Source of the DNA: Oidiodendron maius Zn
Lineage: Eukaryota > Ascomycota > Leotiomycetes > Myxotrichaceae
Assembly: GCA_000827325.1 (NCBI GenBank)
Contig: KN832872.1
Coordinates: 434,001 to 498,000, forward strand
Length of the DNA: 64,000 bases
Direction of reading: 5' to 3'
Position numbers and translations under genes: made by a program. Under the pieces are notes generated by a model. It had not been told where the DNA came from, searched no databases, and saw only the letters and a program-made list of their open reading frames with translations. Positions 60,061-63,739 of this stretch are shown here, one piece after another. Each line of letters opens with the position of its first letter. Positions within the stretch are counted from its first letter, which is position 1.

Positions 60061-61489
60061 TTAAAATCTTGACTCGACCTTCTTCTCCGTATCACCGAGC
60101 GCCCAGGCAGACGTCTTTGTCCTGCTTCGCACACTAGTGGCCTGCGCCTCCGTGAAGCCCTTTGCATCTACTGCTGGGTTGTAGCCCAATTTGTTTATCC
60201 TTCCAACAGTAGCACTGTCGACCGCTGAGTTCGCCTTTCCATCATAACGTTTGTACACAGTCACAACCGCGGCACCACCTAGTCCCAAATTATGCTGCAA
60301 AGCCACTTTAGTGTCCTTGACAAGACGGTTGTTGGCCCAACCTCTCAGATGCCAGACGAGCTCAGCGCACTGAGCAATACCGCTGGCACCAAGAGGGTGA
60401 CCCTTGGAGATAAGACCGCCGCTGGGGTTAATGACGACCTTTCCACCATAGGTGATGTCGCCGTTTCGGACCATCTTGTGCGCCTCACCCGGCTTGGAGA
60501 GGCCAAGAGCGTCGATAACTATCATTTCGTTTGTGGAAAAGCAATCGTGGAGCTCGCAGACCTTTACGTCTTCAGGGGTTACACCAGCTTCTTTCATCGC
60601 GGTTTGGGCAGCGAATTTAGTCATCTCGAAGCCCATGAGATCGATTGCAGAACGGGAGAACAGGCTCGGTGCATCGGTGGCCAAACATTGTCCAGCAATG
60701 AGAATGGCCTGCTCTTTAAGATGGGGACGAGCATCCAAGAACGACTGGGAAACCAGGACGGCAGCCGCTCCGCCATCAGAGGTAGGGCAACACTGTAGTT
60801 TGGTGAGTGGGGCATGGATCATAGGGGCCTTCATAATCTGCTCAAGGGTGTAGACATCCTTGAATTGAGAGTAAGGGTTCCGTTGGGAGTGCTCGTGATT
60901 CACACGAGCGATTTCAGCAAAGTCCTCCGCCTTAGCACCATATCTGGTGGGTTATCAGCATATCACTCAGTAAAGGTAAGGGGAAAAGGGAAGCCAACCT
61001 CTCCATGTACTCTCGTCCGGCGTTTCCAAACATCTGAGCGGCACCAGGTGCATTTGTGAAGCCCCGTGTCTCAACCATCATCTCGGCAGTGGTGCCGGTT
61101 GGGTTCGATCTATCATCCCAGAAGCTCTGTAGGGAGCCGGGGTTCATCTTCTCAAAGCCCACAACGAGGATGCAGTCGGCAGCACCGTGGGAGATCAGAT
61201 TCCGGGCCATATGCAGGCCCGTGCTCCCCGTCGAGCAGTTGTTGTTCACGTTATAGATTGGGATCTGGGTCATGCCGAACTGGTAGAAGACCCGCTGGCC
61301 GCAGGTGCTGTCACCGTAGCAGTAGCAGGCCACGCCTTGGTCCACGTCGTCATAGTTAATTTGAGCATCGAGCATGGCTTTGATTCCCGCCTCGAATCCT
61401 AGCTCGGTGTAGTCGACCTTGCCCCGGGGCTTGATGAATTTGGTCATGCCCACGCCGAGGACGTAGGTCGGCTCGTTGCGTCTAACCAT
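60061..61489 (-). CDS. SCP2-type (SCPx-like) thiolase
   Basis: Exons 61489-60999 and 60943-60061 join over a 55-nt intron (GTTGGC..CCAG) to 457 residues. Start chosen at MVRRNEPTYVLGVGMTKFIK; the frame is open further upstream but that part is leader. Seen: VNNNCSTGSTGLHMARNLIS with the nucleophile cysteine, ILVVGFEKMNPGSLQSF, CELHDCFSTNEMIVIDAL, NPSGGLISKGHPLGASGIAQ and HNLGLGGAAVVTVYKR. This is the thiolase class found as the N-terminal half of mammalian SCPx, here without the SCP2 domain, as in other fungi. It would cleave 3-oxoacyl-CoA in peroxisomal beta-oxidation; the C-terminus SRF is only a weak match to a PTS1 signal. Confidence 0.92.
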
Positions 61490-61745
61490 GGCGGCGGTGG
61501 ATGTTGGCGTGTAAATGAGGAATGGTACAGGGTGGTAGAAGGATATATTAGACGAAGGATAAGGAATGTAGTACAACAGATACAGTAGATACTGTACAGA
61601 CACCGCCTTGATATACCCCACAGGGGAGCCGGTAGAACCAGACTGTGGGGAAGGGGATGAACCGAGGTTGGCAGCGGTAAATGCGGCGTGGAGGAGCGGG
61701 CGCCCGCGGGTAGGATGCTGAATCTCCCCTCCTGACAGTAACTTA

Positions 61746-61770
61746 CAGTACAGTACAGTACAGTACAGTA
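61746..61770 (+). repeat. CAGTA pentanucleotide repeat
   Basis: Five CAGTA units directly abutting the left end of the transposon; the last TA of the run is the transposon target duplication. Confidence 0.9.
61769..61770. repeat. TA target-site duplication, left
   Basis: TA immediately before the left inverted repeat, matched by TA at 63738-63739 after the right one, as for all Tc1/mariner/pogo-class insertions. Confidence 0.8.
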
Positions 61771-61867
61771 ATCGTTCGGTTACGTAACCTGGCTCACCCA
61801 CTTAGCGCAGCTAAGTGGGTGAGGGAGCGCAATATGATAAGAACAGCAATATGATAATTTTTTACCC
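61771..61867 (+). repeat. Left terminal inverted repeat with internal hairpin
   Basis: In order: ATCGTTC, the palindrome GGTTACGTAACC (61778-61789), a hairpin of 12-bp arms with loop GCA (61795-61821), a pair of direct repeats GCAATATGATAA (61829-61840, 61846-61857) and a T6 run ending TTTTTTACCC. The same order is found inverted at the right end. Confidence 0.95.
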
Positions 61868-61900
61868 GGAAACCCCACCTTCCATAAATCAACGCGCACA

Positions 61901-63592
61901 ATGCCATCCAACACCACTGAAATCGAGGCTCGAATTGATGCTGCTAGCGCTGCAATGGATGCTAATCCTAGCTTGAAAGCCTCTGTAGCTGCACACCAGT
62001 TTTCAGCACCATATCAATCCTTACTTCGGCGCTGAGCTGGCATGCCACCTAGTAATAGTCGAGGGGGGCATAATAAGAAGCTAAATTCAGTACAGGATTC
62101 GGCTTTACGAGACTATATATTCATGCTCTATAGCTGCGGGACTCCAGCTAATACTGAAGAAGTCCTCTTAGCTGCTAATCGGTTGCTCTATTACTCAACT
62201 GGTGACCCTGACAAGTCAGTCTCAATACGCTGGACTAAGGCCTGGATTAAGCGCCAACATGATTATCTTGAAGCCCTGAAATCAAAGCCACTATCTGTAA
62301 AGCGCCTTGCTTCGTATATAGTAGAGGATATCGAGGGCTATTTTATGGCCTTTAAGAAGTGTAAGGACTACTGGGGGATCCAGGACGAGGATATATATAA
62401 TTTTGATGAGACTGGCTTTCAAATTGGGGTCTCATCAGGTGAAAAGGTCCTAGTTCCAAAGGATACACTGGCTGTATATACAGCAGACCCTGAAAATAAA
62501 GAGCTTATTACCTCAGTTGAGACTATTAATTATGGGGGCCGAAAGGTGCCTCCTATGATTATATTCGCTGGAGCTTATCACCTGCGTCGATATTTTAAGA
62601 ATAACCTAGACGGCAATATTACATTCGCACGATCAAGCTCTGGCTACTCAAATGATAAGCTAAGGGTTAAATACCTTGAACACTTTAATTATTATACTCA
62701 ATCAAAGAGTGTTGGCAAATACCGGATGTTAATATTTGATGGCCATGGGAGTCACCTTACTCAAGAGTTCCTAGACTTCTGCTGGCAGCACCATATTCGG
62801 CCTTTTCAGCTGCCTGCTCACACTATACACCTCTTACAGCCTCTAGATGTTGGAGTATTTCAGAGCTTAAAACATAATTTTAAGAAGGAGGTTCGGAAGC
62901 AGGTCTTCTTAGGTGCTAAGGAAATATCACGCACTGATTTCTTTGCCTTTTTTCAACATTTCCATGATAAAACCTTTAAAAATCCACGGATTCATAAGAG
63001 CGCTTTCCGGAAAACAGGCCTAATACCACTTGATCCACAGCTAGTCCTCTTAAAATTAAAGGAGTATCAGGCTCTTCAGCGCCTGAAAACACCACTACTG
63101 CCTATTCAGAGGTCCTCGCCTCCACTGCCCTCTTCTTTGCCTGGATTTACAACACCACCACCACCTGACTGGGCTTAATTTCTAACACCTTTGACTATAA
63201 GGACCCGGAAGCTAGGGGTTGAATATATTAAACAACGGCACTATAATTCCCTAGAACAAGGGATACCGATTACACCCTCTGTGATACGTGTAGCTGAAAA
63301 GATTGAGAAGGCTGCTGAGACCTCAATGTTATCTGGGGCCCTTTCAAAGCATCGTTTACAGGATTTAGCTAGTGCAGAGGCTGCATGTAAGAAGAGGAAG
63401 GATAATAGTGGTAAAGTAGTTCAAAAGTATGGTGAAATAAGGGTTTACCAGGCCCGTATACAGATTGAAGCAGAGGAGGAGGATGAAAAGGAGGTGGTTA
63501 ATATACGTCTTAAGAAGAAGGGAAAGGTCTGGCATAAAAATTATCTGAAGGTGCTGAAAGAACTAAAAGAGAGCTTTATAGAGATAATATAA
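61901..63592 (+). pseudogene. Fot1/pogo transposase with two in-frame stop codons
   Basis: From the ATG at 61901 one frame of about 563 codons spans the element. N-terminal part: MPSNTTEIEARIDAASAAMD and SLKASVAAHQFSAPYQSLLR. A TGA at 62033-62035 (codon 45) interrupts it, then SNSRGGHNKKLN begins the helix-turn-helix/CENP-B-like region. The DDE_1 domain shows the three acids in IYNFDETGFQIGV, MLIFDGHGSHLTQEF and LLQPLDVGVFQSLKHN. A TAA at 63176-63178 (codon 426) cuts off the charged C-terminus that starts LTPLTIRTRKLGVEYIKQRH. An ATG at 62042 could start a protein holding the DNA-binding and catalytic core (378 residues). Both stops could come from C-to-T change (CGA to TGA, CAA to TAA). Confidence 0.9.
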
Positions 63593-63645
63593 TAGGTATA
63601 TAATATAAGGTGGTGGTGGCGTATTAGGCTATTTAGTTGGATTCA

Positions 63646-63737
63646 GGGTAAAAAATTATCATATTGCTGTTCTTATCATATTGCGCTCCCTCACCCACTT
63701 TACTGCGTAAAGTGGGTGGGTTACGTAACCGAACGAT
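63646..63737 (-). repeat. Right terminal inverted repeat with internal hairpin
   Basis: Inverted copy of the left end: AAAAAATTATC run, direct repeats TTATCATATTGC (63656-63667, 63673-63684), hairpin with 12-bp arms and loop TGC (63692-63718), palindrome GGTTACGTAACC (63719-63730), GAACGAT. It is about five bases shorter than the left one between hairpin and palindrome. Confidence 0.95.
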
Positions 63738-63739
63738 TA
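63738..63739. repeat. TA target-site duplication, right
   Basis: TA following the right inverted repeat; pairs with 61769-61770. Confidence 0.8.

Follow-up and report, generated by a model that had tools for sequence, protein, structure and literature searches.

Both ends of a Fot1/pogo-type DNA transposon in the window, meaning the whole analyzed stretch of 64 kb, carry a hairpin, and the arms of this hairpin module are probably kept matched mainly by template switching, with no need for selection on each change. Three pairs of closely related copies have 3-nt loops that are exact reverse complements of each other (GCA/TGC twice and GTA/TAC once), and a loop inverted at constant length between near relatives is the mark that a template switch would leave. 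A process other than base-by-base substitution acts on these hairpins. The loop inversions are a new finding. The sequence-only reading of this DNA had taken matched changes in the two arms to mean that selection or a copying process kept the hairpin; the paired change is real in a hand-picked set of hairpins, and the case for selection is weakened by the inversions. Template switching can rewrite one arm from its partner, so selection is not needed to account for matched changes.

In the proposed course of events, the hairpins would form a module in this transposon lineage, with the cleaved tip on one side and the paired 17-bp repeats on the other. While the DNA is copied, either in host replication or in gap repair after excision, a growing strand would switch template inside the palindrome. 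Copying through the loop would turn the hairpin over in place, while partial copying would rewrite one arm as the complement of the other. The arms could then stay matched while their sequence drifts, each change needing no selection, and RIP and point mutation would break the arms in resident copies.

The copy in the window (L001, clade A) sits at the end of the window, at 61771..63737 on the + strand, and measures 1,967 bp between TAs, with 96-bp inverted ends. The TA target-site duplication, a feature of Fot1/pogo-type elements, was read directly on the left (61769..61770) and on the right (63738..63739), and TA also starts most other copies. The transposase gene is broken. Its open part, an open reading frame at 62042..63178 (+) with a profile match to the DDE_1 domain (E 6e-22), is closed upstream by a TGA at 62033-62035 and downstream by a TAA at 63176-63178, and a C-terminal part, recognized from an open reading frame and protein alignment, lies at 63191..63592 (+). 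The locus aligns with residues 23-599 of the L006 protein with one TGA and one TAA inside. DDE_1 is likewise found in L005, L006, and L007 (E 5e-23 to 3e-20), while the CENP-B/Tc5-type N-terminal DNA-binding domain HTH_Tnp_Tc5 scores 20.6-21.3 bits, below the cut-off of 22.2, in the window copy, L005, and L006 and is not among the domain matches listed for L007. A DD35D catalytic spacing is a Fot1/pogo-type feature, and by-eye counting in the window translation places 35 residues between the D of FDGHGSH and the D of PLDVGVF. Short ACAGT repeats (61735-61770) adjoin the insertion site. An open frame on the minus strand (60932-61801), which by eye has the look of a thiolase/sterol-carrier-type enzyme, starts inside the left hairpin of the element; its true start is probably further in, with the element closely upstream of that gene.

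The two ends of the window copy are inverted over 96 bp with 86% identity, and each is built inward from a tip with a palindrome, a hairpin, and two copies of GCAATATGATAA at 17-bp spacing. The 12-bp tip palindrome GGTTACGTAACC lies at 61778..61789 (+) on the left and at 63719..63730 (-) on the right. The left hairpin (61793..61823, +) has a perfect 14-bp stem and the loop GCA, which is TGC in the sister copy L002; its 12-bp core at 61795-61821 is CACCCACTTAGC-GCA-GCTAAGTGGGTG. The right hairpin (63692..63718, -) has a perfect 12-bp stem and also the loop GCA in the transposon-end sense, that is, TGC on the + strand. The sequence-only reading had placed hairpins with this loop and perfect 12-bp stems at 61795-61821 and 63692-63718, and both are there, with the left stem in fact reaching 14 bp; direct reading also bears out its claim that two neighboring pairs are different in the left and right hairpins, with changes in each arm. 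With at most three mismatches, the pattern CACCCACTTNNCNNNGNNAAGTGGGTG has two matches in the window as opposed to 0.01 expected from shuffles, and folding as single-stranded DNA gives -15 kcal/mol for the left and -12 kcal/mol for the right hairpin (z -8.7 and -8.2). Each hairpin is palindromic, which makes the left and right ends of the element direct, and not just inverted, repeats of each other.

Further inward, the direct repeats occupy 61829..61840 and 61846..61857 (+) in the left end and 63673..63684 and 63656..63667 (-) in the right end, the first-named in each end being repeat 1; that of the left end is a presumed transposase binding site. Repeats of this 17-bp period inside inverted ends are again found in Fot1/pogo-type elements. 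Among L001-L013 the paired-repeat motif differs by subfamily (A ATGATAA, B ACGCCAA, C ATGTCAA, D ACGACTC/T, and L011 ACGCACA), and these differences go largely in step across both repeats and both ends (61829-61857 and 63656-63684 in the window copy). Repeats that are out of step exist, as in L047, where the second repeat is ACGATAA, and in RIP-type changes. From their sequence, the paired repeats look like candidate binding sites that would track transposase specificity.

A search of one genome (46 Mb, 58 contigs) finds at least 12 near-full copies, together with partial copies, internally deleted small elements, and solo ends. The 21-nt tip has 61 matches genome-wide with at most three mismatches and its reversed control none; the hairpin pattern is found at 32 places with at most two mismatches and its control at none, two of these places (C5 and C11, two mismatches each) lying outside the set of ends analyzed. 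Near-full copies were sorted by us, without a tree, into group A (the window copy, L002, L003, and the RIPed L012), group B (L004-L006), group C (L007 and the composite L014/L017), and group D (L009, L010, and partial L013, with L008 near), and L011 stands apart. Group A, L012 excepted, is 78-90% identical to the other near-full copies. A transposase frame of 572-599 codons is present in four copies (L005, L006, L007, and L011); over the longer protein alignment, the L005 place contains one TGA and the L011 place two TAG, with none for L006 and L007.

The clearest inversion separates the window copy from L002. These copies are 98.6% identical, with 27 differences in 1,971 bp, of which 24 are transitions, and the only three transversions fall on consecutive bases, those of the loop in the left hairpin, where GCA has become TGC. 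Between the window copy and L003, every one of the 30 differences is a transition. The left loop of L012 is ATA, derivable from GCA by C>T and G>A, and thus TGC in L002 is the derived state. In the second case, the left loops of L009 and L010 are TGC and GCA and account for three of 10 transversions over 1,969 sites, the other seven being scattered. In the third, L008 and the 348-bp L047 element have the loops GTA and TAC and one other difference in 160 aligned sites; the loop of the 68-bp element L072 is GTA, as in L008. Independent, evenly spread transversions would produce such cases with chances of about 2e-10 (L001/L002), 2e-8 (L009/L010), and 1.5e-6 (L008/L047). Across five groups, 25 transversions outside the loops lead to an expectation of 0.09 in all loops, as against the nine in the three inversions, and a hairpin is inverted about 96 times as often as any one base undergoes transversion, a rough figure drawn from few events.

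Other loops add lesser evidence. The loop TAA of L014 compared with TTA in L007 and L017 fits an inversion and is ambiguous, one base being enough, while L054, with the loop TGC and one mismatch in its stem, is a supporting case. No loop inversion is seen in group B, where the loops are ACA, GCA, and RIP-type variants. In a second, more distant family described below, the right end of L099 differs from the left at three positions when read as the reverse complement and at seven when read directly, an older and weaker case; its right loop fits L105 better as the reverse complement (one difference as opposed to five) and L088 equally either way (four differences). An exchange between left and right ends was set aside by reasoning as a source of the flips, as the ends align over 96 bp with the orientation of the loop kept.

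The flips are seen in assembled sequence, where amplification or assembly at the hairpin could have created them, and hairpins can provoke template switching in vitro. The inversions, however, occur in three lineages on separate contigs, and the same comparisons hold no other cluster of transversions, which makes an artefact quite improbable.

Template switching at hairpins has precedents that link the inverted loops to the matched arms. In the published model, loop inversions are predicted together with matched arm changes as products of the same kind of event, and a loop inversion points, on the basis of rRNA, to the interstrand form of the switch (PMC8794818). As in the RNA hairpins of that work, the transposon ends show matched stem changes and also inverted loops of unchanged length; the published system consists of rRNA and microRNA genes, whereas the present one consists of transposon ends without a known RNA. 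Its authors hold a stem change combined with a loop inversion to be the strongest support for the model, and extremely rare in rRNA genes: in 5,525 rRNA clusters, whose loops are conserved, this combination is reported six times and loop inversion alone 69 times (PMC8794818). In contrast to those counts, three clear inversions are present here in five small groups of copies, and a hairpin in a multi-copy transposon, where nothing keeps the loop from turning, offers a better place to search than rRNA genes. Among the copies in this genome, no single step from a known ancestor shows an arm change and a loop inversion at once. In yeast, mutations that match the arms of imperfect inverted repeats have been attributed to template switches, and such quasi-palindrome mutations extend the arm identity of an inverted repeat, as is seen here (PMC3820800). 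The yeast data come from reporter assays, while the present data are an evolutionary record in mobile copies.

We infer that the inversions are template switches, occurring at replication or gap repair, and that the matching of the arms stems from the same events. Cruciforms that are cut and rejoined could also yield a turned hairpin. Several further points count against this explanation. A symmetric turn-over leaves a mismatch unrepaired, and just a partial one repairs it; copying alone should keep old stems perfect, yet 14 of 39 ends in the sample described below have stems of at most 4 bp; and recent arm changes are mostly unmatched (seven as opposed to three).

The sequence-only reading had proposed aligning the ends of the genomic copies and testing for covariation, and in such an alignment the arms do covary beyond shuffles. 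The set comprises 19 distinct hairpins hand-picked from 69 distinct end segments, a recognizable stem and a 3-nt loop being required. Left out were decayed stems, 4-nt loops (L008R, L047R, L067, and L083), indel variants (L046, L053, L064, L075, and others), the left end of L012 with its RIP changes, and L084, where the loop has 3 nt and pair 10 is broken. Over the 12-bp stem, 96.9% of 228 cells are paired (86.6% in shuffles), 22 cells are changed on both sides (6.5 in shuffles), and the covariation score is 0.315 (0.131 in shuffles). None of 500 shuffles reaches any of these values, which are not probabilities, as the shuffles ignore relatedness. When the partner column is slid by 1-3 positions, at most 45.5% of cells are paired. 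The number of further pair types in the 19 hairpins is not raised (nine compared with 8.9, with 377 of 500 shuffles as high). Changes on both sides are seen at six of the 12 stem pairs, and at pairs 8, 9, 10, and 11 they occur in one, two, seven, and eight sequences, respectively. Unpaired cells number two, one, and four at pairs 2, 4, and 5, and four T-G cells at pair 12 are scored as standard, as in RNA, and are mismatches in DNA. Two adjacent matched pairs that differ between hairpins are a candidate for several matched stem changes made at once, in a comparison that gives ancestor and descendant no order.

The same record could arise without base pairing at all if a dimeric protein bound both arms as a two-fold symmetric site and thereby held the same letters in both half-sites. 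No variation is seen among the 19 hairpins at C3, A6, and C7 or at their partners, and several neighboring bases hardly vary, as such a site would have it. However, the left and right ends of the window element have different letters at pairs 10 and 11, and pairs 8-11 vary from copy to copy, all with pairing kept, which a dimer that reads these letters would not accept. A dimer site that reads the sequence is unlikely because a single element carries different inner arm letters at its two ends.

RIP offers a second route to matched changes, as the same C>T change on both strands of a palindrome would come without cost. Its action here is strong. L012 differs from the window copy at 458 positions (231 C>T, 226 G>A, and one A>G), so that 457 of 458 differences are C>T or G>A, and it is a RIP fossil of the lineage of the window copy that serves to polarize changes. 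Close copies differ from each other mostly by C/T and G/A changes, with C most often before A and then before G; four close pairs were examined, and the majority of their C/T differences are before A. RIP, with its C>T and G>A changes and preference for CpA, accounts in kind for the changes in L012 and the scattered clade A differences, and in the stem it can hold for pairs 1 and 5, the change of pair 5 from C:G to T:A being in CpA context. It does not fit the matched change from A:T to T:A at pair 10, which is part of the change singled out by the sequence-only reading, nor the changes at pair 9, which are also transversions; the transitions at pairs 8 and 11 are not before A, and the loop inversions consist of transversions. 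RIP as the whole explanation is therefore ruled out for pairs 9 and 10 and the loops, and there is only a slim chance that it is the source of the matching.

A second sample was drawn independently of the hairpin; it retains the 39 of 58 tip-found ends that also keep the repeat motif and counts identical ends once. In this sample, the uninterrupted stem is at least 11 bp long in 18 ends, at least 6 bp in 25, and at most 4 bp in 14. Shuffled regions have a 6-bp stem in 2.4% and a 10-bp stem in 0.01% of cases. The stem shortens with decay of the tip (Spearman -0.55, p 3e-4, 39 ends). Pairing is not maintained in every resident copy. By hand count over the 12-bp stem, seven arm changes between close relatives are unmatched (L005L, L005R twice, L006R, L008R, L010L, and L054L) and three are matched (L006R; L009R/L010R; and L023R compared with L001R), two of the latter in the CpA context of RIP. 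The sequence-only reading had said that stems broken in other copies as often as the mutation rate predicts would speak against a maintained hairpin; old copies do lose pairing, yet the picked set covaries.

Selection on structure is a further possibility, though a doubtful one. A transposase or host factor would need the hairpin, as a cruciform or a foldable spacer, and changes in a single arm would be weeded out until compensated. Pairs 6-11 are paired in 114 of 114 cells although four of these six pairs vary, as this explanation would have it. Selection on pairing predicts no loop inversions, however, and some stems are imperfect in copies with an open transposase frame: one pair of the right stem is broken in L006, and the stems of L005 and L011, whose frames are open over 572 and 589 codons, are imperfect too. 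L084, outside the 19 hairpins, breaks pair 10. Covariation is usually taken as proof of selected structure, but the same record here holds loop inversions, which selection does not predict, and the natural copies of a hairpin transposon family allow selection and copying to be separated.

A structural role is still favored by the second family. With the L006 protein as query, two loci (C18 and C1) are found whose transposase is 33% identical and aligns to residue 566, and both ends of this family carry a hairpin, CTCGCCTAGTTT-CCGGT-AAACTAGGCGAG, at nt 22-50 with a 12-bp stem. This hairpin has no evident sequence similarity to that of the first family and yet occupies the same place. By eye, its ends run from tip to hairpin to repeats of about 18-bp spacing that start at nt 57. 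At least five arm changes in the second family (L094, L095, L096 twice, and L098) are all unmatched, and no matched one was noted. As the hairpin module is present in both families, it would seem to have some use; the same place with unrelated sequence argues for this unless the hairpin perpetuates and rewrites itself.

Eleven further loci with a 27-34% identical transposase served for comparison, all lower in score than the second family, though some are not below it in identity. Inverted ends are identifiable in seven of these (L090, L091, L110, L112, L113, L114, and L115), which do not amount to seven independent families since the ends of L090 and L114 are nearly identical; such ends were not found for L092, L093, L109, and L111. 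No stem of at least 9 bp is present in the ends of any of the seven, a point on the side of selection on structure. L090 has an 8-bp stem across the right tip boundary, and a hairpin near L112 belongs to the neighboring L006 element. The position of the repeats was measured in one relative that lacks the hairpin, L112, whose 17-bp repeats begin at nt 11, compared with nt 56-61 in the hairpin families. Judged by sequence against L112, the hairpin is an extra module of part of the group, of about 45-50 nt with its surroundings.

It is conceivable, if improbable, that the module is a spacer that folds out. An extruded hairpin would bring the repeats at nt 56-61 nearer to the tip and so gate cleavage by supercoiling or replication, and the same folding would provoke the template switch that, in place of selection on single base pairs, keeps this control structure of the element perfect. 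The placement that folding would approach is the one seen in L112, where the repeats are near the tip. A check by hand gave no support for a fold-out spacer of constant length, as the distance that remains differs from clade to clade.

Apart from the hairpin, the element resembles known fungal transposons. Trem of Paracoccidioides and DAHLIAE of Verticillium are Fot1/pogo-type elements that, like the present one, are about 1.9 kb long with a TA duplication and a DDE_1 transposase, and their inverted ends are likewise reported to contain direct repeats of about 17 bp (PMC3441728, PMC2836289). Compared with Fot1/pogo-type elements, a perfect hairpin of 27-33 nt is placed here between the tip and the repeats. 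DAHLIAE3 is described by its authors as free of internal palindromes, whereas the present element has them. The open-licence literature searched, on template switching and transposons as well, showed no report of hairpins in the ends of Fot1 or similar elements, and a search with pieces of the tip sequence led to seven papers, none related by title. The hairpin thus adds a module to the end anatomy of a common group of fungal transposons. Outside this group, palindromic motifs in mariner inverted repeats were reportedly described by Bigot et al. in 2005; by its title, that work places palindromes in transposon ends of the wider superfamily, as is the case here.

Several ends depart from the common plan. 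In L008 and L047, the two tips of one element are unlike (TAATCGTTCGGTTACCCCACC on the left and TAGTCGTTCGGGCAAAATC on the right), and the right hairpin has the 4-nt loop TTAC. At L020 1479 and L071 89 (minus strand), the hairpin seems to have been deleted, with the tip and repeats kept. Ten solo ends (L042, L058, L059, L060, L061, L062, L066, L068, L070, and L078) lose homology within nt 22-60, which is suggestive of repair that stalled at the hairpin; short remnants may instead survive better and so be the source of solo ends. A possible second tip with two mismatches lies within 400 bp of L059, L061, and L066, so that some solo ends may be small elements.

Complete elements of about 50-96 bp, consisting of a tip, a hairpin or part of one, and a second tip, occur in both families. 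L072 is 68 bp long (97-164) and has its left hairpin joined to the right tip at GGTGAG, which is common to both ends. L056 measures 90 bp (90-179), L063 96 bp (94-189), and L067 72 bp (334-405), and in the second family L100-L102 are about 51-54 bp long by a count made by eye.
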